A stretch of 30,034 nucleotides of DNA from a virus, in the IMG/VR virus record IMGVR_UViG_3300035688_000053, positions 1 to 30,034 of that record; one strand, 5' to 3'. Of the stretch, positions 10,086 through 30,034 are shown piece by piece. Position 1 is the stretch's first letter. Every line of letters begins with the position of its first letter. The position numbers were made by a program, and so were the translations under genes. The notes under the pieces are model-generated. The model was given only the letters and a program-made list of their open reading frames with translations. It ran no database searches and was not told where the DNA came from.

Positions 10086-10110
10086 CCGTGGCGTTGCCGT
10101 CGAGGAGGAC
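10086..10110 (+). promoter_or_regulatory. Leader element shared with the 7684 gene (copy 2)
   Basis: CCGTGGCGTTGCC (10086-10098) and the ribosome site GAGGAGGAC (10102-10110) precede ATG 10115. The same 13-mer and ribosome site stand before the 7684 gene, and no other gene start in the window has them. The GTG at 10088 lies inside this element and is rejected as the start. Confidence 0.6.
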
Positions 10111-10114
10111 CCAG

Positions 10115-11086
10115 ATGGCAACAAAATTCTACACTCCCGGGTATCGCAATGCTATGGCCATGAAGAAGCCCGGCGGTTCGGCGTGGGTCAACCTGCCGAT
10201 CTTGCCTGGGACTGGCTTTGCCATGCCCTACAACTACCAGATTCCGGCCGTGATTTCCGGCTTCAACGTGTACCAGTTCAACGCCGTGGAGGGCCTGCAG
10301 TTCGCGACCATCAACCTGCAGACCCTGATCATGAAGAGCTGGTGGTCGGGGGCCAAAGCCGATTTGTGGGAGAAGTGGTTCCCTGAGAGGGCGACGAACG
10401 ATGATACCGACGATCTGGGAAACGGCAGCGATCCGTGCCTCAAGTTCTGGTTCGGTTCCGCAGAGGGTCCAACCTCGCCAGAGGGCCGCGGGTTCGAGTT
10501 TACCCGCGGGAAGGTCAACTGGGCAAGGCTCGGTGCGAGCCAGGGGGACCTCATTAGGCTCTCCATGCAGATCCTCGCAACGGGGTTTACGCCAATCAGC
10601 GCGATGCCCGGCGAAATGAAGATCATAACCGATCCGCCAGCCGCCAGCCAGCACGTCGAGCTGGGGGGCGCGCTTACGCACTCGCCGGGCCCCAATGGCA
10701 CTCCGGTGGTCTCCTGGGAGCTTGCGCTGATGAACAACCTGATGCCGTCTCCGCTGTTGAACTCCGAGGTGTACCCCTACGAGTTCAACGCGGGCCAGTT
10801 CACGGGATCAATGAGGCTCGTAATGCCGGTGGCGGTGGACCTGCCACTGGAGGTTGCACCCGGACTGTTGCCAGAGTCGTGCAACTTCATAATCAAGTGC
10901 CCGACAGATCGGCGGGAGCCGGGCGAGGGAGACGCCATGACATTCAAGGTCAAGAACTATCTGGCACTCGACCCGCGCGAGAGGACTGTAATGCTGCCGC
11001 GGCAACTCAAAGAGGTCAACTACGCGTGCCTGGGCGAATGGAAGACTGGCGATCCGGCCATGTCCAGGCCAATCGAATTCGCATAG
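10115..11086 (+). CDS. Major tail tube protein
   Basis: ATG 10115 is chosen because GAGGAGG lies five to ten bases upstream. The 323-residue protein starts ATKFYTPGYRNAM and has alternating strands (YQIPAVISGFNVYQFNAVEG; MRLVMPVAVDLPLEVAPG; MTFKVKNYLALD), with no membrane segment. Strong initiation signals, high-G/C codon bias and, above all, its place immediately before the tail chaperone pair and tape measure gene identify it as the tube protein of a long non-contractile tail. No sheath gene is found. The size is larger than a minimal tube protein, so an extra surface domain is likely, perhaps around residues 95-150. Confidence 0.75.
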   Translation: MATKFYTPGYRNAMAMKKPGGSAWVNLPILPGTGFAMPYNYQIPAVISGFNVYQFNAVEGLQFATINLQTLIMKSWWSGAKADLWEKWFPERATNDDTDDLGNGSDPCLKFWFGSAEGPTSPEGRGFEFTRGKVNWARLGASQGDLIRLSMQILATGFTPISAMPGEMKIITDPPAASQHVELGGALTHSPGPNGTPVVSWELALMNNLMPSPLLNSEVYPYEFNAGQFTGSMRLVMPVAVDLPLEVAPGLLPESCNFIIKCPTDRREPGEGDAMTFKVKNYLALDPRERTVMLPRQLKEVNYACLGEWKTGDPAMSRPIEFA

Positions 11087-11097
11087 GAGGCAAGACA

Positions 11098-11694
11098 ATG
11101 CAGCACGTGACGTTCGAGTGTGTGGTCAGGTTCGTCTCCAGCGAGGGCGATATTTACGTCCTTGCCGATGCTGACGACCTGATGGCCGTGGAGGGAAGCA
11201 TCGCGCGCGGCGAAGAGTTTGCGGCGGGGTTCTCCGGAGAGCGACCCCGAAAGGGAAAGGCCGAGCCAAAGGAGCCGAAGATAGACCCGGCACAGCTCGC
11301 AGTCGTCCAGATGCAGCTCGCGGCCGACAGGGCCTTCCTGGAGCAACAGAGGCGATTGGTAGTCGCATACGGCCAGGCGGCGGAGAGCATGACCGCGGTG
11401 ATGCACAGGTGGACCTACCGCGAGTACTATTCAGCGCTCGAGGAGGCCCGTCGCTACGCGGTAGACCTCTCCGCACCGACTGTTGACCAGGCCGCGTTCC
11501 GGACGGCGATACTGGCCAAGTGCATCGAGTCCTGGACCCTAGACGAGCCTGTCAGTCGAGACGGTATTGAGAGTCTGCCGCGGCAGATCGTGGAGACGCT
11601 GTTTGCCAGATTGCAGAGGAGGAGCGAGCCGACGAGCGATCGGCTCGATTTTCTTCGCGCTCTTGGCAAGCGACCTGGCGAACGACCGGCTTAG
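11098..11694 (+). CDS. Tail assembly chaperone, upstream part (lambda gpG-like), 198 aa
   Basis: ATG 11098 follows AGGAGG (11085-11090). The protein begins with a small strand domain (MQHVTFECVVRFVSSEGDIY), then a charged linker (about 45-60), then long helices (IDPAQLAVVQMQLAADRAFL; MHRWTYREYYSALEEARRYA). It lies exactly between the tail tube and tape measure genes and overlaps a second frame that ends inside the tape measure start, the arrangement known for gpG/gpGT pairs. These chaperones coat the tape measure protein during tail assembly. After about residue 185 the zero frame turns Arg/Pro-rich (GKRPGERPA), as expected beyond a shift site. Confidence 0.8.
   Translation: MQHVTFECVVRFVSSEGDIYVLADADDLMAVEGSIARGEEFAAGFSGERPRKGKAEPKEPKIDPAQLAVVQMQLAADRAFLEQQRRLVVAYGQAAESMTAVMHRWTYREYYSALEEARRYAVDLSAPTVDQAAFRTAILAKCIESWTLDEPVSRDGIESLPRQIVETLFARLQRRSEPTSDRLDFLRALGKRPGERPA
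11650..11656 (+). other. Candidate programmed +1 (alternatively -2) frameshift site
   Basis: In the zero frame the codons are GAT TTT CTT. A tRNA-Phe on TTT (11650-11652) can move forward one base to TTC (11651-11653), because the same tRNA reads both codons. Continuing from 11654 gives FALLASDLANDRL in the downstream frame. That frame is open from 11543 to 11908, so the shift must lie in 11543-11691. The upstream part of the frame is Arg/Cys-rich and implausible, which favours a site near 11640-11660. The exact codon is a proposal. Confidence 0.5.
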
Positions 11695-18139: not shown

Positions 18140-19304
18140 ACCGAGGAGGCTTGGGGTCACCTCCCGTTGATAGTCTGCCCTGGCTGGCTGCCACATGGCT
18201 TGTCTCTGCCCGCTTCGGGGCGGATGCTCCGAAGTCCGAGACGTTTGGCCGGACTATTAGGGCGGCCCGGCGGATATTCTCCGCCGCGATGACATCTGCG
18301 GCCCCAGCGAGGCCGCAAGACGTGCAAAGGAAAAGACCTTGAGCCTTACGATTTCTTCTATCGATATGCCCACAAAGAGGGCACGTGATGCTGGTGTTCC
18401 CACGGTCCACGATGACCACGGGGACTCCGACCAAGCGCGCCTTGTAGTCGATAAAGGTTTTGAGTTGGAAGAAACTCCAGGAAGAGAAGATGTCCCGCTG
18501 GGGGCGCCTAACCGTCATCTGAGAGCCAGGCCCATTCAGATTTTCGAGAGCAATGGCTCTTTTCGTGTCTTCGGCCTTGGACACTATCTTCTTGGAGATC
18601 TCGTGGTTGATATGCCGGGCAAAGCGACTCTCTTTCCTCCGCCGACTTCTCAGAAGTCTTGTTGCGGAGAGGGTTCCCTTGTTCTGGAGTTTGGTCCTGA
18701 GTCTGCGGTGCCGTTTTCTCAGCCCGTTGACGAGCGCGCCCGAGAACATCTCGCCGTCGGAGTCCGCGGCGATCTGCTTGATGCCGAGGTCCACGCCGAG
18801 AACATCGACCGGCTCGATCGGATCGGGTTCGGGTACGTCGCAGGCGGCCAGAAGGTAGAAACAACCGTCGATCAGCGCGAGGTCGGACTCCCCGTGTCGG
18901 TGCTTCAGAAGCTCGCGGTCGCGCGACCCGCAGACGAAGGGGATGACAACACGACCATTGAGGCTGGATATGGAGACCAGTCGCTTATCCGGGAACCACC
19001 GAAGGATTCGATCGTCATAGGGGACGCATCCATGCGGCCTGAAGGTGCGCCTGCTCTTTCTGTCGACCTTGTAGGTGTCGGCGACCTTCGCTATGCAACG
19101 GACGGTGATCGCGGCGTGCAGGTCGAATCGCTCGCGCACTTTGCGATAGGCGATCTTGTGCAGGTCGAACTGGCGGAAGGTTTGGCTATGCCAGGGGGCT
19201 TCGCTTATAAAGTTGCAGGCGTCGTTGGCCCCTTCAAGCGTAGCTCTCAGCAGCTCGGCCTGGCCGGGGTCCGCGACCAGTTTCACCTTCGCAGTGAGGT
19301 TCAT
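18117..19304 (-). CDS. tnpB: TnpB RNA-guided nuclease of an IS200/IS605- or IS607-type element
   Basis: ATG 19304 gives 395 residues, normal for TnpB. An upstream extension of the frame runs through the ribosome site of the next tail gene and is rejected. The RuvC-like active site is intact: D172 in VLGVDLGIKQ, E254 in AIALENLNG and D337 in GAADVIAAENI. The zinc finger is C308-x2-C311 and C327-x2-C330 (ITCPLCGHID, FLCTSCG). TnpB cuts DNA guided by an RNA made from the right end of its element, which helps the element stay in its site. No tnpA or serine resolvase is in the window, so this is a TnpB-only copy that would need transposase in trans. It is antisense to the tail operon. The last codons run into the preceding tail gene. 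Confidence 0.95.
   Translation of the reverse strand: MNLTAKVKLVADPGQAELLRATLEGANDACNFISEAPWHSQTFRQFDLHKIAYRKVRERFDLHAAITVRCIAKVADTYKVDRKSRRTFRPHGCVPYDDRILRWFPDKRLVSISSLNGRVVIPFVCGSRDRELLKHRHGESDLALIDGCFYLLAACDVPEPDPIEPVDVLGVDLGIKQIAADSDGEMFSGALVNGLRKRHRRLRTKLQNKGTLSATRLLRSRRRKESRFARHINHEISKKIVSKAEDTKRAIALENLNGPGSQMTVRRPQRDIFSSWSFFQLKTFIDYKARLVGVPVVIVDRGNTSITCPLCGHIDRRNRKAQGLFLCTSCGLAGAADVIAAENIRRAALIVRPNVSDFGASAPKRAETSHVAASQGRLSTGGDPKPPRSIQSICR
18125..18270 (-). ncRNA. Candidate omega/right-end RNA of the TnpB element
   Basis: In TnpB elements the guide RNA scaffold overlaps the 3' end of tnpB and stops at the element's right end, with guide bases taken from the flanking DNA. Here that region is the minus strand from about 18270 to 18125. 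It contains a hairpin formed by GGGAGG (18165-18160) and CCTCC (18149-18145). The guide would then read into the 3' end of the tail gene. Position and extent are inferred from family knowledge. Confidence 0.35.
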
Positions 19305-19362
19305 TCCGGAACCATTGTAGGCTTTGGCGCGGTAGAAGGCAAGCGTTTTCTTCCCGTTGCGG
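18125..19362 (-). mobile_element. TnpB-only insertion element between two tail genes
   Basis: The gap between the tail genes ending at 18139 and starting at 19379 is filled by tnpB, and the next gene keeps its own ribosome site (TAGGAGG, 19364-19370). The element must therefore lie between about 18125 and 19362. The octamer TCCCGTTG occurs near both edges (18162-18169 and 19352-19359) and may belong to terminal sequences. Elements of this class make no target duplication, so the ends cannot be fixed from sequence alone. The limits are approximate. Confidence 0.72.
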
Positions 19363-19378
19363 TTAGGAGGCAGTGACA

Positions 19379-21592
19379 ATGCCTGAGACAGCCGTTGTAC
19401 ACCTGTTCGTGGCCCATTCGGTCGCCGAGAAGCCCGAGGTCGACTGGGTGCCGGACATAGGCGAGGAACGGGACCGCGCCGTACTCCTCGACAAGGTCTG
19501 GATTGAGCCACTGACCGGCACCCTGATGCTCGCCCCGAAGCAGATAAGCCAATATTCGACCGTGACCGGCGATATGGCGCGGCTCAGGAAGACGGCGGGC
19601 TACACCGTGCCGACCGCTGCGGCGTGGGAAGATGCCGAAGTCGGGTTCGCCGGGAACTGGTTCCTGCTCTCGAAGGACAACCCTACTGAGGAAGTGGAAA
19701 CTTCGGAGACGTACGCGGCAGACCAGGCGTTTTTCGTGGCTCTCTTCCTGTTCGGCAGCGGTGGAGGCAAGGTCCGGCAGGTCGCCTCGCTCAAGTTCGG
19801 TCAGTACGAACTCAAGGTGCGCTCCGACGGCTACACCGCGCTTTACGAGGGTTCGACGTTTAAGGGCGCCGGCTACCTTGTGGGCGAGCGCAACAAGACC
19901 TCTCCTGCCGAGGGCTATCTGCCGTGGGCCTATGGCGACCAGGCACTCTATGGCAACTGGCTGCGACTGTTGATCCTGCCCTTCAACCGTTATCAGATCG
20001 CCTTTATTCCTCTCGACAATCTGGGCGGCGGTTGGGTCTACTCGGACACGAGCCGGGACAACAAGAGTGCCTGGGGCATCACTACCAGCGCGCCCTTCAA
20101 GTTCAGTTTCCCGGATACCCAGGAGGCGCAGAAGGGCCTGATCCAGGTGATGCCGGTCGTTTATGAGGCGAGCGGTAGTTTCATCACCGCAACAAAGGTC
20201 CTGCCACACAAGCCAAGCATCGCGCCGGATAAGACCTCCGCGTACGACGCCCCGGCGGGGACTGGCGGCACTGTCACCGTTGTAGACGAGAGCAACAACG
20301 AGATAACGACTTGGAACGGGACCAAGGATCGCGTGCGGGCAAAGGTCGCCCTCACGGGTGCGCCTGCCAACACGCGCCTCACGATCTTCTACTATCGAAC
20401 CCAGATCCGCTGGGCGGTAGAGCGGACCGCGGTTGTGCCTTCGGAGATAGTGCTGAACCCGCCGAATGACTATGACAACCTCACGTTCAACGCGGGCGAG
20501 AGTGACCTGGCCGCACAAGCGGGAAACACCATCGCGTTCGTCCCAAGGAAGACTGACGTGATGAAGTCGCTCTCGGGCAAGTCCTACCGCGGGGTCACGG
20601 TGGCAGACCCAACAGAAGGCGAGCTCTTTGCTGGCTTCATCGATCCGGCGGTGGACCTCGGTCGGCCGGGATCCCAAGAGGTGGTGGACATGCAGGCACA
20701 GTCCGTCGCGGCGCGAGATTTCTGGGCGCTTCTTGAGAAGACCGTCATCCCGGACGATTGGATCATGGACGGCCTCTACCACTACGACGTGGTCAAGCGA
20801 CTGTTCGCGCTCTCAGGCATACCCGACCTGCGGATGGACGTGGACACCGCCGGGGTAGGCGATTGGAACGGTCAGTTCGACTGCGACTGGCGCTACAAGA
20901 GACTCTGCTTTCTCGTTAAGGGTGGAACCACGGCAGGAGAGGCCGCGCGGTCCATCCGAGACAACTTCTCCAACTGGATATTGGACTGCGCCCCAGTCGG
21001 CGGTGTATACAAAGCACGCTACAAATCTAGGGGGGTTCCTGCGCCGCCGCCCGCTCCCGTGAGGACGCTGTACCGCAGCATGGTGGACCACGGTTGGCAG
21101 AACAGCTTCTGGGGGGACTTCAGAGAGTGGCGCGATCCGGTGCAGGCCAACCATATCCAGGTGATCGGCGCCACCATCCACGGGGTCACGATCGAGTCGG
21201 TGTTCGAGGACGCGGATAGCCAGAGCCCCGAGACGCCAGAGGCGAATCGCAACGAGTTCTGGGTGGGCAAGAAGCTCAGCCTCATCAAGCGCAACGAGAA
21301 TCTGACAACCCAGGAGATCTGCGACGCCGTCAAGGAATGCCTCAAGGCCAGACTTTACAACCCGCGAAAGATGGCGCGGTGGACGGCGATGTGGGATGCT
21401 CTTGTTCAGGTCGGCAGTTATCTCCGCCTGGAGGGAAAGGGTCTGTACCGAATCCTCTCGGCAGTCCCTGTGGCCGGGAAGGACGACAAGATCGGCGAGC
21501 CAGCGACCCGGGACACGAAAACTGATCCCAAGGTGGGGCAGCACACATACCGGAGGGTGATGACCTATGTCGGCGAACGCATCGGCGATTGA
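19379..21592 (+). CDS. Tail-tip protein 2, large hub-like, 737 aa
   Basis: ATG 19379 stands 8 bases after TAGGAGG. The GTG at 19373 is too close to that site. N-terminal residues 1-290 are strand-rich (VVHLFVAHSV; GNWLRLLILPFNRYQIAF). About 310-360 looks like an Ig-like spacer (TVTVVDESNNEITTWNG). From about 400 a hub-like part follows with DWIMDGLYHYDVVKRLFALS (about 461-480), which resembles MDGWCHYYAIRFLARLAGL in the 15782 protein. The end is a helix (TQEICDAVKECLKARLY) and a strand region. With the 15782 product it probably forms the tail tip or adhesin base. The two genes were presumably adjacent before the TnpB element arrived. Confidence 0.75.
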   Translation: MPETAVVHLFVAHSVAEKPEVDWVPDIGEERDRAVLLDKVWIEPLTGTLMLAPKQISQYSTVTGDMARLRKTAGYTVPTAAAWEDAEVGFAGNWFLLSKDNPTEEVETSETYAADQAFFVALFLFGSGGGKVRQVASLKFGQYELKVRSDGYTALYEGSTFKGAGYLVGERNKTSPAEGYLPWAYGDQALYGNWLRLLILPFNRYQIAFIPLDNLGGGWVYSDTSRDNKSAWGITTSAPFKFSFPDTQEAQKGLIQVMPVVYEASGSFITATKVLPHKPSIAPDKTSAYDAPAGTGGTVTVVDESNNEITTWNGTKDRVRAKVALTGAPANTRLTIFYYRTQIRWAVERTAVVPSEIVLNPPNDYDNLTFNAGESDLAAQAGNTIAFVPRKTDVMKSLSGKSYRGVTVADPTEGELFAGFIDPAVDLGRPGSQEVVDMQAQSVAARDFWALLEKTVIPDDWIMDGLYHYDVVKRLFALSGIPDLRMDVDTAGVGDWNGQFDCDWRYKRLCFLVKGGTTAGEAARSIRDNFSNWILDCAPVGGVYKARYKSRGVPAPPPAPVRTLYRSMVDHGWQNSFWGDFREWRDPVQANHIQVIGATIHGVTIESVFEDADSQSPETPEANRNEFWVGKKLSLIKRNENLTTQEICDAVKECLKARLYNPRKMARWTAMWDALVQVGSYLRLEGKGLYRILSAVPVAGKDDKIGEPATRDTKTDPKVGQHTYRRVMTYVGERIGD

Positions 21593-21872
21593 ACCGATTG
21601 GGGCCTGTTTTGAAGTCTATCACTGCGAGGCCGGTAAACATCATGAACTGCCCGGGATCGGCCCGAAGGTCTGCCCGCGACCAAGTTGCCCCGGGTACGG
21701 ACAGGCACTCAGATTTCAGGGACTTGACATGCCCTACGGGTACTTTCTGTACCGCGCCTTCTGCCCAAATTGCGCCACGCGGGAACTCGTAGTCACGAGC
21801 CCGGGCGAGACGCACCAGTGCAAGGACTGCGGTTGGGCGAAGATGGAAACGTGCCGCAGCGGGAGGGCGTAA
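21567..21872 (+). CDS. Small zinc-ribbon protein, 101 aa
   Basis: The start overlaps the preceding stop by 26 bases. Two metal-binding patterns are visible: C20 with H25/H26 and C36-x4-C41, and a classic zinc ribbon C66-x2-C69 ... C85-x2-C88 (FCPNC and HQCKDCGW). The sequence is otherwise polar. It ends two bases before the receptor-binding gene start. Zinc ribbons in this position could be structural tail-tip parts or assembly factors for the next protein, which also has Cys clusters near its N-terminus. The function is not known. Confidence 0.72.
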   Translation: MSANASAIEPIGACFEVYHCEAGKHHELPGIGPKVCPRPSCPGYGQALRFQGLDMPYGYFLYRAFCPNCATRELVVTSPGETHQCKDCGWAKMETCRSGRA

Positions 21873-21873
21873 C

Positions 21874-24800
21874 ATGCCGGCGGTTCTGGTCAAGGAGAAC
21901 TGGCGCAAGAAGACGTTCACCGTAACGGGTACGATGCACTTCCGCACGGCCTTTATCGGCGAGGACTACCTCTCAGGCAGCGGCTGCCAGGTCGGCAACA
22001 AGCTGGAGATAACGTTCCCCTGGCCGCTCAACGTGAACTTCATCATCGAGCAAGGCGCAGGAACACTGTGGGAAGCGGACCACTACTCCGGCTGTAACAA
22101 CCCGGAGTGCAGCGGATGCCACGGCGAGACGACCCACACAGTACATGACCCCCTTGGCCCGCCGTGCTTCTGCTGCCCGCCGGATCCCAATTATCAGGCG
22201 AACGTCCATCCGGTTCACCTTCACGTCGGCTGGGGCGCCATTGCGGGAGAATGGACTGGACAGTGCGATGTGGACTTTGACTGGGACTACAACCTCGATC
22301 AGAGACCGTATGGCCCACACTGCGTGCCAGAGGCCGCAACCCAGTACTGCGAAGTGAACGATTACGATGTCTCCTACAGTGTGACGGTCGAGTGCTGGAC
22401 TGATTTGTTCATGGAGGTTGTGCCCTACTACGACCAGTTTGGGTCAAGATGCGAGGCCCTTCCCGGCGGTGTCTTCGAGGAAACCTACTGCGAGCACCAG
22501 GGCGACCGCAACGGATCCTATCTACCGGACATCCGGATGAGGTTCGGCGAGCAGATTCACGACAAGGGTGGAGGGGTCGGCGACGTGACCGTTCACGCAC
22601 AGATCACCGTGGGTGGCGTGACCCACACATACGAGGAGACGGTCGAAAGGCTATCTGTCGACTGGACGGACAACACGATCGAGTTCTGGGGCGAAATCTC
22701 GTGTAGCGCGTACGGCTGCGCCAGTCGCCCGGTCGAGGACTATATCGTCGCGACCTGGCTCCGAACCTTCACCCAGGCGCCGACGGGCAATGACCCGGGC
22801 ATCTTTCATTACGATCACCAGCACGCCGTCTACGACGCAACGCTCCGGGTCTACCTGGACAACAACAGGTTTGCCTTTGGCTGCCGCTGGGCGCATAGAT
22901 CGCTTCCAGGGATTCCAGACCCCACGGGGTGGTTTTTGACCGAGTATTGGAACCATGCCGGCAAGATCACAACCCCGTACCACGGCACGATCGCGGAAAG
23001 CGACGGCACTCCGGTAACAGGTGTCCAGATGAAGTTGAGACATGGCACGAGACCCATCTACGAGATAGTGCATTACCCGGGGGGGGACGAAGGGCTGTGG
23101 ACCTGGGGCTTGCCTGCCGGCGAGGTGGCTTTCGTTGACGGCGCAGATGTCCCCTGGAATGGTTGGTGGAAGCTCATCTCTGATGCTGTCGGAAGCATAG
23201 CGGATCCGGGCGGCCCATACATCATCTTCGACACGGTCGCGGAGTACTTCGACGTCCCAGAGCAGCCGCCACAGGACAATTACATCAACCAGGGCCTGGT
23301 CAACATCACCAATGCCGATGCCCTGTTTGACCCGTTCTACCCGCAATTCCATGACCCGCCGGAGAGCATAGAGTTTGACCTGAACGACGATGCCATCCCG
23401 GACTACACCGACTCCAGGGTGCTCCTGAAGCCGAGTCTCGCCTCTGACGTCCTCCACTGGCAGGCCGTGAGGGTGGACATTGGCGTCGACTATGGGGAGG
23501 AATCCGCTCCAATCCTGACCTTCGACGGCGACGGCTGGACGAAAAACAGGGAAGACCTCCAGGTCACGACGGACAATGGCGTCAAAGTCACCGGTGCCCA
23601 GATCGGCGACTGGATAGAGCAATCGTTCCTTACGACGAAGAAGCGGTTGACCGGGGCCAGATTTGCGCACCTGCATTGGCATTCCGACGCGGCCGGTGAG
23701 ATCAAATTCTCGGTGAACGGCAGATGGTGGGTGCTCACAGCCGACGCCGCTGGCGAGCACGAGTCCGTCATCGATCTTTGCAGACCAAACTATACGGAGA
23801 GTGCAGATCAAGTCCAGTCAATCATCCCCGTCGAGCTGCCCAAAAACCTTAATCTGCCACCGCTTTCACCCGGCGGAACGCACGGCACCGACCTCGGAAC
23901 GGGCTTTGGCGTCGGCAGGATAGACGAGGTGAAGTTTGAGTTCAACGTGGCGGGGACGTACATAATCAGGACGATCACCCTCTACCGGAAGACCCAAGCC
24001 GAAGGAGGCTTCATTCGGATAGACCTCAATCCGCAGTCTGCATTTTACAACGCCGGGCTAGGCAACCCGAATCGTATCCCTGCTCCGATCGACGGGATCC
24101 CGGGCGGAGAGCAGGGGGGCGGCGACTGCGGGGTGTACTACGCAGGCCAACAGGATGATGGCACCCACACTTGGGAGTGCTATCTCTACCGCGCCGGAAT
24201 CGTAATCGTTGACGGCGCGGTGGTCGGCGAAATCGTGATCGGCGGGCCCCAGCTTACGAGCGGATTTACCTACGACGGTTGGACGTTCGCGATGGAGCGG
24301 ATGGCCTCCGGGATATTCTGGTGCATCCCATTCGACGACTATTGTACCCCAACCGAGTCTCCTGCTGCGAACGGAGTAGTGTCGCTCGTCCGGCTTGACC
24401 CCCCGAAGATCGGGGGCAACCTGGCCGTTCCTGAGACCTACGTGGGCTACCTCGACAGGGTTGCCGGCGAGCTTGCGGACCAACAAACGCTCAGCGCGAC
24501 TGTCAGGTTCGATGTCGCGTGCTACGCCGTCGGCTTCGGGAACGTTATCGGTTCGCTCGAGAAGTACACCAAGGGTGATATCCACGGAATAGCGTACAAG
24601 GACAGCGACCCGGGCTTCGCCCCCGGTGCCAAGGTAACTATAGTCGCCGATGGCGTGAGCCAAAATGTCCAGACCAACAGCCTCGGCTACTTTCGATCTC
24701 ATCCGGTCAGGGCACGGGCCCTGGACGCATCTGCCACTGTGACAGGAAAGGCCGGAACAACAGTTACGGTCTATCCGAGGAACCGGCACTATGGCCGCGC

Positions 24801-25392
24801 AATCCCCGTCGGGGAGGCAGGCGGGGCGGCCCGACTTGATCTCGCCATCGCACCCTTCGGGCGAATCTATCGGGTGTACACTGTGGCCTCGGACGTCTAC
24901 GTCGGACACTCTGATAACGGCGGCAAGAGTTGGACAGAGCACCAGGTCACAACGAGTGGCGATGCCGACTCTCCCTCGATTGAATGCGATGCAACCGGGC
25001 AGGTCTGGCTCGTGTACGGGCGATCGGGCCAGGTGCTCATGCGGCACTCTAACAGTGAGGGAGATATTTGGAGCGCTGAGGTGAACGTCGGAGCTGGCAC
25101 CCACCCGGAGATATATTTTGATCCGCGAAGCGAGATCATTACGGTTTATTGGGTGGACGCGGACGCCGGGAAGATATATGCCCGTCGGCGCACGGCGTTT
25201 GCCTGGATGGACGACTCGGCGTTTATCCTGTCAACGGGCCAAGCAGACCTGGCCGCATCGGACGACGTCCTCAGCGCGACCCCGGTCCTGAACGCGAGCG
25301 GGCACGTTGGCCTGCTCTACCGGAAACCCGATGGCACGCTCGACTTCCGCGTGAGCGCCGCGAACGGGGCAAATCCCTACGTGGAGCCGTGA
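21874..25392 (+). CDS. Receptor-binding/tail fibre protein with Asp-box (sialidase-like) repeats, 1172 aa
   Basis: The N-terminal 110 residues carry a Cys-rich patch (SGCNNPECSGCHGE, then PPCFCCPP), likely disulphide or metal bound. Beta-rich modules follow to about residue 960, including an Ig/carboxypeptidase-regulatory-like unit near 905-950 (IHGIAYKDSDPGFAPGAKVT). The C-terminal 190 residues have two Asp-box motifs, SDNGGKSW (about 1013-1020) and SNSEGDIW (about 1058-1065), with strands such as GQVWLVYGRSGQVLMRHSN and EIITVYWVDADAGKIYARR. These belong to BNR/sialidase-type beta-propellers, which bind or cleave surface glycans. As the last and largest tail-tip gene, before lysis genes, it is the best candidate for host recognition. 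Catalysis is not supported, since no full set of sialidase residues is visible. Confidence 0.8.
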   Translation: MPAVLVKENWRKKTFTVTGTMHFRTAFIGEDYLSGSGCQVGNKLEITFPWPLNVNFIIEQGAGTLWEADHYSGCNNPECSGCHGETTHTVHDPLGPPCFCCPPDPNYQANVHPVHLHVGWGAIAGEWTGQCDVDFDWDYNLDQRPYGPHCVPEAATQYCEVNDYDVSYSVTVECWTDLFMEVVPYYDQFGSRCEALPGGVFEETYCEHQGDRNGSYLPDIRMRFGEQIHDKGGGVGDVTVHAQITVGGVTHTYEETVERLSVDWTDNTIEFWGEISCSAYGCASRPVEDYIVATWLRTFTQAPTGNDPGIFHYDHQHAVYDATLRVYLDNNRFAFGCRWAHRSLPGIPDPTGWFLTEYWNHAGKITTPYHGTIAESDGTPVTGVQMKLRHGTRPIYEIVHYPGGDEGLWTWGLPAGEVAFVDGADVPWNGWWKLISDAVGSIADPGGPYIIFDTVAEYFDVPEQPPQDNYINQGLVNITNADALFDPFYPQFHDPPESIEFDLNDDAIPDYTDSRVLLKPSLASDVLHWQAVRVDIGVDYGEESAPILTFDGDGWTKNREDLQVTTDNGVKVTGAQIGDWIEQSFLTTKKRLTGARFAHLHWHSDAAGEIKFSVNGRWWVLTADAAGEHESVIDLCRPNYTESADQVQSIIPVELPKNLNLPPLSPGGTHGTDLGTGFGVGRIDEVKFEFNVAGTYIIRTITLYRKTQAEGGFIRIDLNPQSAFYNAGLGNPNRIPAPIDGIPGGEQGGGDCGVYYAGQQDDGTHTWECYLYRAGIVIVDGAVVGEIVIGGPQLTSGFTYDGWTFAMERMASGIFWCIPFDDYCTPTESPAANGVVSLVRLDPPKIGGNLAVPETYVGYLDRVAGELADQQTLSATVRFDVACYAVGFGNVIGSLEKYTKGDIHGIAYKDSDPGFAPGAKVTIVADGVSQNVQTNSLGYFRSHPVRARALDASATVTGKAGTTVTVYPRNRHYGRAIPVGEAGGAARLDLAIAPFGRIYRVYTVASDVYVGHSDNGGKSWTEHQVTTSGDADSPSIECDATGQVWLVYGRSGQVLMRHSNSEGDIWSAEVNVGAGTHPEIYFDPRSEIITVYWVDADAGKIYARRRTAFAWMDDSAFILSTGQADLAASDDVLSATPVLNASGHVGLLYRKPDGTLDFRVSAANGANPYVEP

Positions 25393-25407: not shown

Positions 25408-25848
25408 ATGGGAACTGCACAAGCCGCAAACGTTCTCGGGAACATGGGAAACACCTTTCCGACGTTCTTCCTCTACGCGCTCATTGCTGGCATCGCCGCC
25501 CTTGCGGTCTTCTGCGCGACGCTGATCTGGGGCATCAGGCGCATTGTCTGGTGGGCGCTGAAACACTCGGAGGCGATGTTCAAGGAGGCGCTCGAGACAC
25601 AGGAGTCCGCCACGCGATCGATCGAGGAGTGCGGCAAGGCCATGCGCGATGTGTGCGACAACCTAAAGGACGTAAGGCGGTCAGTGGATGACCAGGGCAA
25701 GGTCCTGGTGGCCCTGATTGAGCGGACCACAAGTGAACACACGGAGCAAGCAAAGATTTTGCGGGCCTGCCTCGGCGCCTTGCAGCAGATTTTCTCGCGC
25801 AACGGCGGCCACAACGGTAAGGTCGGCAAGAAGCGTCGAGTGGCCTGA
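25408..25848 (+). CDS. Membrane protein with one transmembrane segment and coiled coil, 146 aa
   Basis: After a short polar start there is one strong transmembrane segment (FFLYALIAGIAALAVFCATL, about residues 19-38) followed by an Arg/Trp anchor (IWGIRRIVWW). The rest is a long charged helix with heptad-like spacing (EAMFKEALETQESATRSIEE; VCDNLKDVRRSVDDQGKVLV) and a basic tail ending GKVGKKRRVA. It opens the lysis block. A holin accessory, spanin-like or superinfection role is possible. Homology is not recognised. Confidence 0.7.
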   Translation: MGTAQAANVLGNMGNTFPTFFLYALIAGIAALAVFCATLIWGIRRIVWWALKHSEAMFKEALETQESATRSIEECGKAMRDVCDNLKDVRRSVDDQGKVLVALIERTTSEHTEQAKILRACLGALQQIFSRNGGHNGKVGKKRRVA

Positions 25849-25866: not shown

Positions 25867-26079
25867 ATGATCCTTTGGAACGCAATCAAGTCAGCGGCTC
25901 GGCAGTGGTACGTCACGGCCGTCGGCTTCCTGCTGCTTTCAGCATGGGAGGCCCTTACGCACCTGAATGTGCCCGTGACGTGGAAGTACTACGTCATCTT
26001 CGCTGCCGCCTTATCTCTCGCGAAACTCTGCGACAAGGCGGTCCGCGAGTGGATCATCCGGCATTGGCCTTCCCGGTAA
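25867..26079 (+). CDS. Putative holin, two transmembrane segments, 70 aa
   Basis: ATG 25867 starts a 70-residue protein with two hydrophobic segments, WYVTAVGFLLLSAWEAL (about 14-30) and YYVIFAAALSLAKL (about 41-54), separated by a short loop (THLNVPVTWK), and a basic C-terminus (REWIIRHWPSR). Size, topology and location two genes before sigma and three before the amidase fit a small holin that forms membrane holes to release the amidase, which has no signal peptide. This is inferred from architecture. Confidence 0.7.
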   Translation: MILWNAIKSAARQWYVTAVGFLLLSAWEALTHLNVPVTWKYYVIFAAALSLAKLCDKAVREWIIRHWPSR

Positions 26080-26379: not shown

Positions 26380-26982
26380 ATGGACAGAGCGGCAGCGGTC
26401 GAGCTTTTCGAGGCGAATCGGGGACTGGCGTACAGCCGGGCGCGAACTATGTTCGTAAACGCAGAGACCCGCCAAGACCTCGAACAGGAGGCGCTGATCG
26501 CGCTCTGGAAGGCGGCGTTGGGTTTCGACCCCGCCCGCGGTTGCCAGTTTTCGACGTATGCGGTGCCGAAGATCCGCGGAGCGGTGCAGGAATGCCTGCG
26601 GCAGACAGGGCAACGCCTTCATGTGGCGAAGTGGGCGTATGACCGTGGGGTTCGCGCCCCTGCTATTCTTGAAACCGACCTGGGGTGCTCGCTCGAACAC
26701 CTACTGCACGGCGACGCAGGCATCGGTGGCTCGATCACTTCCGTGTTCGACACGGTCGCTGCGAGCGACTTGCGGAACCGCCTGTCCGAGATCATCGAGG
26801 AGACGAGCGGGACGGAGTTACACAAACAAGTGCTTCGGCTGGTCTTGCTCTCCGGACTGAACCGACAGGAGGCGGCCAAGAGGACAGGTTGCTGTTGGAT
26901 GACCGCCGACAAGGCGCTGCGCCGCCACCTGCCGAGGATTCGCGCCAAACTCGTAGACTGGAAACCGGAGGAGAAGCAATGA
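26380..26982 (+). CDS. Phage-encoded sigma70-family RNA polymerase sigma factor, 200 aa
   Basis: Region 2 is clear: residues 8-30 (ELFEANRGLAYSRARTM), then RQDLEQEALIALWKAALGFD (31-50), then GCQFSTYAVPKIRGAVQECL (54-73). This is the core-binding and -10-recognition part, with the usual D-L-x-Q-E motif. Region 4 is a helix-turn-helix at about 145-190 (ELHKQVLRLVLLSGLNRQEA, then TADKALRRHLPRIRAKL). No region 1.1 is present. ATG 26380 follows AAGG about 6 bases upstream. The stop overlaps the amidase start (ATGA), coupling translation. It probably redirects host polymerase to phage late promoters. The promoters it reads are not identified. Confidence 0.9.
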   Translation: MDRAAAVELFEANRGLAYSRARTMFVNAETRQDLEQEALIALWKAALGFDPARGCQFSTYAVPKIRGAVQECLRQTGQRLHVAKWAYDRGVRAPAILETDLGCSLEHLLHGDAGIGGSITSVFDTVAASDLRNRLSEIIEETSGTELHKQVLRLVLLSGLNRQEAAKRTGCCWMTADKALRRHLPRIRAKLVDWKPEEKQ

Positions 26983-27569
26983 ACTGTGTCATCGATCCGG
27001 GTCACGGATATAAGTTCTTCGGCAGGTTGCCGTCGGGTGCCCGCGGCAGTGGGTTGGTGGAAGACGACGTCGTATTTGATGCCCGAGATCCCTCCAACGG
27101 CTTCGCCCAGAGACTCGGCCATATCCTGCGCGAGCGCGGGCACGAGGCGATCCTGACGCGGGGCAAGAAGTACGTGACCCTGGAGCGCCGGGCCCAGATT
27201 GCACTAAATCAAGGCGCGGACGCGCTGATCTCGCTCCACTGCAACTGGGCCATGACCCCGCTCGCTCGCGGGGTCGAACTCTACGCAGTCCAGGGCGACC
27301 TCAAGGGCCTAAACTTCGCGAAGGGAATACTCGGATCCCTGCACACGAAACTCGGCCGCAGAATGGCCTACCGAAACCCATCGGTGAAGTGGGACACACA
27401 AACACACGTGCGTAGTCTGTACATCCTGCGGCACACCTACCAGAAGATGCGCGCTGTCCTGATCGAGATCGCCTTTCTGACGAACACGCGGGACGCCACG
27501 CTCTTGACCGACCGCCAATTCCGGCAAGATTTCTGTGAGGCGGTTGCAGATGCGGTCACCAAGCTGTGA
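26979..27569 (+). CDS. N-acetylmuramoyl-L-alanine amidase (Amidase_3 type endolysin)
   Basis: The 196-residue enzyme has the Amidase_3 zinc site complete: H9 in VIDPGHG, E28 in GLVEDDVV and H87 in ALISLHCN, with catalytic E163 in VLIEIAFLTN. It would cut the amide bond between N-acetylmuramic acid and L-alanine in peptidoglycan and release progeny. There is no signal peptide or cell-wall-binding domain, so export through a holin is expected. Start codon ATGA overlaps the sigma stop, and its end overlaps the likely start of the ATPase gene by 20 bases, so the three genes are probably made in a coupled way. Confidence 0.93.
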   Translation: MNCVIDPGHGYKFFGRLPSGARGSGLVEDDVVFDARDPSNGFAQRLGHILRERGHEAILTRGKKYVTLERRAQIALNQGADALISLHCNWAMTPLARGVELYAVQGDLKGLNFAKGILGSLHTKLGRRMAYRNPSVKWDTQTHVRSLYILRHTYQKMRAVLIEIAFLTNTRDATLLTDRQFRQDFCEAVADAVTKL

Positions 27570-27957
27570 GCTGCGGATATTCAGCACCCAGATGTCGGCA
27601 CGCCAGGTTCGGTACTGGTTGCGCGAGAAGTTCGACGCCTGCGGGGCGGCGGGTACTCACTGGACAGGGGATCTCATCGCAGCAGCAGGAGAGGCTGTCG
27701 CCAATGCCTGGCAACACGGCGGGGGCGCCGGTTGTGCGCCGATCCACGTGTCCTTCTTCTTCGAGCTTGCACCGGTGCGCGCCGTCGTAGAGGTCGGTGA
27801 TATGGGTCGCGGGTTCGACCCGAAACCGCCTACTATTGATCTGCAGGAGACGGGTCATCGGGGGCGACTGATCATGGAGGGGTTTTGTGAAGTGAGGTAC
27901 GAGCGGCGACCGCCCTGGTTTGTGGTCGTGCTCAAAAAGAGAATTGGGGAAGCCTAG
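27550..27957 (+). CDS. RsbW-like HATPase, putative anti-sigma factor kinase
   Basis: ATG 27550 follows GAGG at a suitable distance and keeps the first strand (CELRIFST). ATG 27592 would remove it. The 135-residue protein has the GHKL ATPase signatures in order: N box E48-A-V-A-N52-A-W-Q-H56-G, G1 box D84-M-G-R-G88-F-D90, and a G2-like stretch (GHRGRLIMEG, 102-111) before closing strands (CEVRYERR; WFVVVLKK). This layout is the small HATPase_c_2 type seen in RsbW/SpoIIAB anti-sigma kinases, which bind sigma factors and phosphorylate an antagonist. No antagonist (STAS) gene is in the window. Its closeness to the sigma gene makes an anti-sigma role likely, but this is inference. Confidence 0.75.
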   Translation: MRSPSCELRIFSTQMSARQVRYWLREKFDACGAAGTHWTGDLIAAAGEAVANAWQHGGGAGCAPIHVSFFFELAPVRAVVEVGDMGRGFDPKPPTIDLQETGHRGRLIMEGFCEVRYERRPPWFVVVLKKRIGEA

Positions 27958-28003: not shown

Positions 28004-28043
28004 GGGGGCCGGTCAGGCCAAGACCTGGCTGGCCCCCCTTTTT
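28004..28043 (+). terminator. Strong intrinsic terminator of the late operon
   Basis: The arm starting GGGGGCC at 28004 pairs with the arm ending GGCCCCC at 28037 (14 bp with one mismatch), with a 6-base loop, and is followed by TTTTT at 28039-28043. It ends the rightward late transcript before the attachment site. Confidence 0.88.
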
Positions 28044-28179: not shown

Positions 28180-28236
<57 letters not shown>

Positions 28237-28239
28237 GTT

Positions 28240-28253
28240 TTGCTAACAAAGTG
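28240..28253. repeat. Direct repeat flanking the attachment core, right copy
   Basis: TTGCTAACAAAGTG is the partner of 28055-28068. It overlaps the stop codon of the excisionase-like gene and starts five bases after the tRNA fragment. Confidence 0.5.
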
Positions 28254-28491
28254 GCAACATCAGGGCCGAGTGGTCGTCGGGCCTGATCCTGGCCTTGATC
28301 TCCTCGGCCTCAACCCGAGTCCACACTCGCTTCCAGGCCGCCCGGCCTGTTCGCGTCGGCAACCGGCGTGGTTCGGGTATTCGCGCCCACCTGAGCCAAC
28401 TCAGAATCGTGTCACGCGGCACGCCGAGATACGCTGCCAGGTCAAACGTGCTCAGCTCGTTGCGGTCGCACAACCTTGAGCGTGGTGTCAT
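28243..28491 (-). CDS. Excisionase-like MerR-type DNA-binding protein, 82 aa
   Basis: The ATG at 28491 is preceded on the minus strand by a strong AGGAGG site. Residues 12-45 (ELSTFDLAAYLGVPRDTILS, WLRWARIPEPRRLP) form the winged helix-turn-helix of the excisionase/MerR family, where the AAYLGV-x-R-x-TI-xxWLR pattern is typical. A basic wing (KRVWTRVEAEEIKARIR) follows. It ends eight bases from the tRNA-Ser fragment and is part of the leftward int-side unit. The likely role is direction control of integration, that is excision. A small repressor is the alternative. Confidence 0.82.
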   Translation of the reverse strand: MTPRSRLCDRNELSTFDLAAYLGVPRDTILSWLRWARIPEPRRLPTRTGRAAWKRVWTRVEAEEIKARIRPDDHSALMLPLC

Positions 28492-28979: not shown

Positions 28980-29285
28980 TCAGGCGTCAACTACCTTGAC
29001 GCCGGGGAACGCTGCCTCAAAGGGCAGACGCTTCTCGCGCAACTGCTCGTAGAGCCGGATCGCTTCATCCTGCGTGTGCGCCGTGAGGGCGCCATCATCA
29101 GCACCCTGCCACTGCGACCGGTGCTGGCTGAAGTAGCTGCCGTTGCGGCTGCGGAACAGGAAGCAATTTGTATTGCGCCGCTCGTAGTTGTGCCCATCCC
29201 AGTAGTCGTCTCCCGCGATGAGCGTGGCGGTCTCGGTGTTGTACCGCTTGCCGCCAATGATCTGCTCGACCTCTAGTGTGTGCAT
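28980..29285 (-). CDS. Small accessory protein, 101 aa, unknown function
   Basis: The ATG at 29285 follows AAAGGAGG on the minus strand at good spacing. The protein starts HTLEVEQIIGGKRYNTETAT and continues LIAGDDYWDGHNYERRNTNC, with FLFRSRNGSYFSQHRSQW and a C-terminal helix (DEAIRLYEQLREKRLPF). The repeated Tyr/Trp/His residues in strands suggest a compact mixed fold. Similar small proteins are common in phage early regions, and I do not recognise a function. It is the first gene after the strong promoter at 29358-29386. Confidence 0.75.
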   Translation of the reverse strand: MHTLEVEQIIGGKRYNTETATLIAGDDYWDGHNYERRNTNCFLFRSRNGSYFSQHRSQWQGADDGALTAHTQDEAIRLYEQLREKRLPFEAAFPGVKVVDA

Positions 29286-29425: not shown

Positions 29426-30034
29426 TCAATTCACCCGGCGAAGGATCGGACCGAGCAACTCCTCCATACGGTCCGCCGCCCCGTCTTGCATGGGGGCCGT
29501 GACGTGCCCGTAGAGGTCCTGCGTTATCGAGATCGTGGAGTGGCCGAGGAGTTCGGACAGAACCTTCGGGTGAGTGCCGGCCAGGAGTTGCAGCATCGCG
29601 TAGGTGTGGCGGAGGTCGTGGAAGGTTATGTGACTGACGCCTGCGCGGTCACGAATCTTCCGCCAATCCCCGCTGAAGCTGTCTGGGTGCAGCGGTTGGC
29701 CATCTTCCCGGCAGCAGACGAGCCCCCGGATTCGGCCTTGTTCTGACCGATAAGAGCGAAGCTCGGCGGCGATGCTCGGTGAGATCCTGATGGTGCGTGG
29801 ACGGCCTGATTTTGGAGCCTTGAATCTAAGGCCGTCTCCTGTCTGTTCTACGGACCGCCGGACTCTCAGCAGGCGCGCCGATAGGTCAACGTCCTCCCAG
29901 TCGAGCCCGAATATCTCCCCCCGGCGTAGCCCACAGCCTACTGCGAGCAGGATTGGGATGTAATACCTGGTTCCCCGAGCCAGAGCAAGAAGCCGACCGA
30001 CCTCCTCCAGATTCAAGGTTGGCCGCTCGCGGCG
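29426..30034 (-). CDS. int: Tyrosine integrase, catalytic domain, 5' end outside window
   Basis: The leftward frame is open to the right edge (the codons before the TTG at 30016 read RRERPT), so the N-terminal arm- and core-binding domains lie outside. The visible 202 residues form the tyrosine recombinase catalytic domain: Arg in GCGLRRGE, Lys in APKSGRPR, H-x-x-R in HDLRHTY, His in LGHSTISIT and the nucleophile Tyr in QDLYGH. It ends with a short tail (DRMEELLGPILRRVN). With the excisionase-like gene and the tRNA-Ser fragment it forms the integration module. Confidence 0.96.
   Translation of the reverse strand, partial: RRERPTLNLEEVGRLLALARGTRYYIPILLAVGCGLRRGEIFGLDWEDVDLSARLLRVRRSVEQTGDGLRFKAPKSGRPRTIRISPSIAAELRSYRSEQGRIRGLVCCREDGQPLHPDSFSGDWRKIRDRAGVSHITFHDLRHTYAMLQLLAGTHPKVLSELLGHSTISITQDLYGHVTAPMQDGAADRMEELLGPILRRVN

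Follow-up and report, generated by a model that had tools for sequence, protein, structure and literature searches.

An RsbW-type ATPase of a temperate phage as a possible late-expressed modulator of host partner switching

A temperate-phage fragment, listed in IMG/VR as a record of 30,034 bases and analysed here over its entire length (the window), encodes a sigma-70 family factor, an endolysin and an RsbW/SpoIIAB-related ATPase, which together are an unusual combination. We tentatively regard the ATPase as a late-expressed modulator of partner switching in the host, and we favour this over a role as the dedicated anti-sigma factor of the adjacent sigma factor, which we hold to be rather doubtful. 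The three genes are best explained as the last part of a late operon, in a temperate phage that infects Armatimonadota.

The window opens within the gene of an SPO1-like major capsid protein (PHROG 752, 2.4e-52; 28-32% identity to Herelleviridae-type phages by tblastn) and closes within a tyrosine integrase gene. From the capsid gene to the ATPase gene all genes lie on the + strand and are closely packed. A -1 frameshift at 10088-11694 was rejected because the second gene starts at an ATG of its own, behind a separate ribosome-binding site. The initial annotation had described the sigma factor, the amidase and the ATPase (26380-27957) as one coupled block; the genes proved to be real and tightly coupled, at 26380-26982, 26979-27569 and 27550-27957. 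The sigma gene extends from ATG 26380 to TGA 26982. The amidase gene, from ATG 26979 to TGA 27569, overlaps it by ATGA and has GGAGGAG upstream. The ATPase gene ends at TAG 27957 and starts more likely at ATG 27550 (135 aa), a codon inside the amidase gene with GAGGCGG upstream, than at GTG 27535 (140 aa). The ribosome-binding sites of the amidase and ATPase genes are good, and third-position GC for all three genes is 0.69-0.77, similar to that of the structural genes. A strong intrinsic terminator on the + strand (28004-28037; 14 pairs, then CTTTTT) marks the end of the unit, and no sigma-70-type promoter was found within the block; the three genes are presumably co-transcribed. The product of the middle gene (+ strand) is an N-acetylmuramoyl-L-alanine amidase of the endolysin type (Amidase_3 5.6e-31; PHROG 435 endolysin 1.6e-25). 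Ahead of the block, also on the + strand, the small product of 25408-25848 contains a single strong hydrophobic segment (19-residue hydropathy maximum 2.45) and is possibly a holin or spanin-like partner; that of 25867-26079, 70 aa long, contains two segments of moderate hydrophobicity (maxima 1.27 and 1.26) and might be a holin. Neither product had a family match in profile searches.

The most likely host, judged from a sequence match, is an armatimonadote, because two Armatimonadota genomes have the sequence of the attP core (28180-28235, + strand, 56 bp) in the 3′ part of their tRNA-Ser(CGA). The match, with 56 of 56 bases identical, runs from the anticodon loop through to the terminal CCA, and an exact 52-base pattern was found only in the same two genomes when 84,980 species were searched with one genome apiece. 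The window carries the 3′ part of the tRNA only, with phage genes on either side, as an attP predicts; a tandem of two integrated elements would be a less simple explanation. This tRNA fragment lies near the integrase gene (29426-30034, - strand; Phage_integrase 4.5e-25, PHROG 1 1.8e-49), the 5′ part of which is lost at the contig end, an arrangement that points to integration into a tRNA gene. A small HTH protein (28243-28491, - strand) is excisionase-like by two weak matches (HTH_17 3.7e-4; PHROG 66 excisionase 0.016). Between its gene and that of the integrase, a 101-aa gene (28980-29285, - strand) has as its sole match PHROG 38278 (6e-5), a family of unknown function. Once the phage is integrated, the ATPase gene would be the final phage gene ahead of the host chromosome.

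The ATPase (+ strand) matched HATPase_c_2 (PF13581) at 1.4e-8 in the profile check, with 35.3 bits against a cut-off of 27.4, which bears out the family proposed initially. A match to NF041045 (RsbA-type; 1.4e-5) is below the cut-off. PHROG 12354 (146 aa, "transcriptional regulator") matched at E 0.019 and may hold distant phage cousins of the protein. The initial annotation had also recognized N, G1 and G2-like boxes. The N box (EAVANAWQH) and the G1 box (DMGRG) are indeed intact, but the third is degenerate: HRGRL stands in place of GxGL, outside the pattern GxG[L/F/M], and the C-terminal GT is missing (PWFV). Of 58 sequences scanned with the motif patterns, 48 contain the G2 box and 46 the GT. 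An invariant arginine is kept at the position aligned with Arg20 of SpoIIAB; on the alignment, we take it to be the equivalent residue. With its ATP lid degenerate, the ATPase may no longer act as a kinase, and this possible loss of activity counts against an action on host partner switching, as does the retained Arg20-equivalent. Structure prediction without an alignment gave a mean pLDDT of 40.9, too low to be of use.

The relationships of the ATPase speak for a host-directed role. Its best match in 291 Armatimonadota genomes (34% identity, E 1e-13) is a lone chromosomal ATPase without a neighbouring sigma gene; a STAS-RsbW-sigma operon lies ~7 kb off on the same contig. In both proteins the G2 and GT motifs have been lost in the same way. 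In a maximum-likelihood tree of 58 domains they pair with each other (SH-aLRT 98), both on long branches, and all sigma-adjacent RsbW/SpoIIAB proteins fall in a separate group (support 98) with the phage ATPase outside it. Against this, a placement of the phage ATPase, together with one further protein, among the sigma-adjacent RsbW/SpoIIAB proteins was not rejected by the AU test (p 0.205). Both genomes in which the att tRNA was found are rich in possible targets, with 6 and 8 HATPase_c_2 and 6 and 7 STAS proteins above cut-off. No STAS gene had been noted initially, and none is present in the window or in two related contigs (all three records are possibly incomplete). Several Armatimonadota sigma-adjacent RsbW proteins have degenerate N (EACTTS) and G1 (DQAGD) boxes (loci L027, L028 and L077:10812-11246) and may be pseudokinases; two genomes with such proteins carry the att tRNA.

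The same data bear on a different account, in which the ATPase is an acquired and drifted accessory gene at the attP-proximal end, with poor ATP binding and either no role in transcription or one unrelated to sigma factors. The degenerate G2 and GT motifs, the long branch of the phage protein (1.64) and the location beside attP, a frequent site of cargo gain, would all fit. Against it, the reading frame is unbroken and its codon use resembles that of late genes, the N and G1 boxes show no deviation, and a host chromosomal homologue shows the same motif loss, which argues for a functional subfamily. We consider such drift improbable.

The two related contigs match the window across the structural genes, one of 80 kb at mostly 70-95% amino-acid identity and one of 66 kb at about 27-56%. 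Both encode a similar sigma factor: in the 80-kb relative it lies at 52078-52707, just ahead of the genes for head protease, scaffold and capsid, and in the 66-kb relative at 29480-30121. Neither contains a HATPase_c_2 protein or a match to the amidase of the window; the 80-kb contig ends within the homologue of window gene 21874-25392 and hence before the block locus, and the 66-kb contig continues beyond that homologue into different, minus-strand genes. Of the sigma-ATPase pair, whose recurrence in related phages the initial annotation had proposed as a check, a single case was thus seen, in the window, with the 80-kb contig stopping short of the locus. That both relatives have such a sigma factor without the ATPase favours a target of the ATPase in the host. 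As side observations, a small cysteine-rich (zinc-ribbon-like) frame at 21567-21872 of the window, between genes of 739 and 1172 aa, is kept in the 80-kb relative, and a 345-aa gene with 62% identity (window 18339-19376; 80-kb relative 67154-68164) has moved, following a 785-aa gene in the window and preceding a 1199-aa gene in the relative.

Wider searches found no further instance. IMG/VR scans with the ATPase, the sigma factor and the amidase, and with two-row alignments of the ATPase and of the sigma factor, added no relative of the block to the 80-kb and 66-kb contigs. Searched with tblastn against 50,697 phage records, the phage ATPase matched nothing, and two bacterial homologues matched five records. 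Three of these, filed as phage (MT837088, MT837115 and OR845010), were inspected and rejected; they contain whole spoIIA or rsb-sigB operons, flanked in the gut-derived ones by folC-like and further chromosomal genes, and we therefore read them as bacterial contamination. The 50,697 records, with three of the five matched ones inspected, thus yielded no verified phage relative of the ATPase. Armatimonadota prophage-like loci found via the 785-aa tail protein have no ATPase of this kind, and the open-access literature yielded nothing pertinent on phage RsbW-type proteins.

The sigma factor (200 aa, + strand) had been assigned regions 2 and 4. Region 2 stands (Sigma70_r2 2.5e-13); for region 4 the Pfam match is weak (HTH_23 0.0011), yet the match to TIGR02937 (2.9e-18, residues 5-191, above cut-off) covers it. 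The protein is of a phage type (PHROG 351 sigma factor, 1.8e-22, residues 4-198), and it is probably a phage transcription factor, because similar sigma factors are present in all three phages. In region 2 it comes closest to SigB/F/G proteins (TIGR02980 8.9e-14, residues 4-88), although the score of 51.7 bits against a family cut-off of 234 places the protein outside SigB/SigF/SigG proper. Its best PDB match is 1l0o_C, the SigF chain of the SpoIIAB-SigF complex. A profile search of Armatimonadota with the phage sigma factor returned mainly long housekeeping-type sigma frames. Region 3 (Sigma70_r3) had no match in the phage protein in Pfam, compared with 9.1e-12 for an Armatimonadota SigB-type control, and in the alignment the stretch between regions 2 and 4 is much shorter in the phage sigma factor and in those of the relatives than in the host SigB-type. 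In SigF, region 3 contains Asp148 and is the main docking surface for SpoIIAB. SpoIIAA and SigF compete at this residue in SpoIIAB-SigF (PMC7340262). Because region 3 is undetected and the stretch between regions 2 and 4 is shortened, the canonical SpoIIAB docking surface appears to be reduced or lost in the phage sigma factor, which makes an interaction between sigma factor and ATPase less likely.

The initial annotation had proposed exactly such an interaction, with the ATPase as a dedicated anti-sigma factor that is made slightly later from the same transcript, so that activation is followed by shut-off around lysis. The shared run, in which start and stop codons of neighbouring genes overlap, the nearest relation of region 2 to SigB/F/G, the PDB match to SigF in complex with SpoIIAB, and the retention of the N box, the G1 box and the Arg20-equivalent are all consistent with it; indeed, the presence of the ATPase and a SigB/F/G-like sigma factor in one run would have to be a coincidence if the two are unrelated, a point against a host-directed role. 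The undetected region 3, the relatives that have the sigma factor without the ATPase, the order sigma-amidase-ATPase with a lysis gene in between (unlike rsbVW-sigB or spoIIA operons) and the pairing with a lone paralogue in the best tree argue against inhibition of the adjacent sigma factor, none of them decisively, and a shut-off at lysis has no obvious benefit. A self-contained switch in the lysis cassette, in which an RsbW-type anti-sigma factor holds a region-3-less sigma factor in a mode other than that of SpoIIAB-SigF, seems to us unlikely. The initial fallback, that the ATPase hijacks a host sigma factor, fares no worse: a host-aimed factor fits at least as well as one aimed at the phage sigma factor.

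Phage anti-sigma factors such as T4 AsiA have an unrelated fold and are not GHKL ATPases; the likeness is that of a phage protein possibly binding a sigma factor. The ATPase resembles SpoIIAB and RsbW, with their partners SigF and SigB, in its HATPase_c_2 fold family, the N and G1 boxes, the Arg20-equivalent and a SigB/F/G-like sigma factor nearby. It differs in following the sigma gene with a lysis gene between, in having no STAS gene in the window and in its degenerate G2 and GT motifs, and the phage sigma factor differs in its undetected region 3. Bacillus phages encode SigF/SigG-like sigma factors that reprogramme host transcription (PMC9429907, PMC2716549). The present case is alike in the relation to the SigF/G group, the temperate lifestyle and the redirection of host transcription, and unlike in that no RsbW-like partner is known from those accounts, the host phylum is another, and the present sigma factor is region-3-less and inside a lysis cassette. 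The RbaV/RbaW partner switch acts on the gene transfer agent RcGTA, its cognate sigma factor not having been found (PMC3999984); there too an RsbW-type protein is tied to a phage-like particle, although RbaW is host-encoded with a STAS partner and the present ATPase is phage-encoded.

A precedent for action on host partner switching is Mycobacterium smegmatis, in which RsbW1 alone binds SigF; of the other two, RsbW2 acts on a STAS antagonist by phosphorylation and RsbW3 on RsbW1 by sequestration (PMC10950880). RsbW2 and RsbW3 are RsbW-like proteins outside the sigma operon, a relation similar to that of the closest Armatimonadota homologue; the present ATPase is unlike them in being phage-borne. 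RsbW3 is also the model for a narrower alternative, in which the ATPase captures a host RsbW in a heterodimer, freeing a host SigB/F-type sigma factor and protecting the phage sigma factor or host polymerase. The degenerate kinase motifs and the sigma-RsbW-STAS operons present in near-host and other Armatimonadota genomes agree with such a capture, but the structure prediction, unusable at the mean pLDDT given above, supplies no dimer interface for it, and we deem this alternative very improbable.

Under the favoured reading, modulation of host partner switching, the phage sigma factor would most likely steer host RNA polymerase to phage promoters. The ATPase would most likely act at a late stage of infection and, since its gene adjoins the attachment site, perhaps also in lysogens, by binding host partner-switching proteins, whether STAS antagonists, an RsbW or a host SigB/F-type sigma factor. 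The host stress response would be altered and the phage's own sigma factor would not be switched off. We infer the targets of both proteins, the timing and the direction of the effect.

Phage sigma factors are already known, as is an influence of host partner switching on phage-like particles. For a phage carrying an RsbW-type ATPase, no verified earlier case was found in open-access text or among the 50,697 phage records. The attP core in addition points to a likely host for an otherwise unassigned phage group. If the phage sigma factor is the target, the ATPase would represent a novel type of timer for gene expression in phages; if host partner switching is the target, it would give a virus a handle on a stress pathway that is very abundant in a little-studied phylum.
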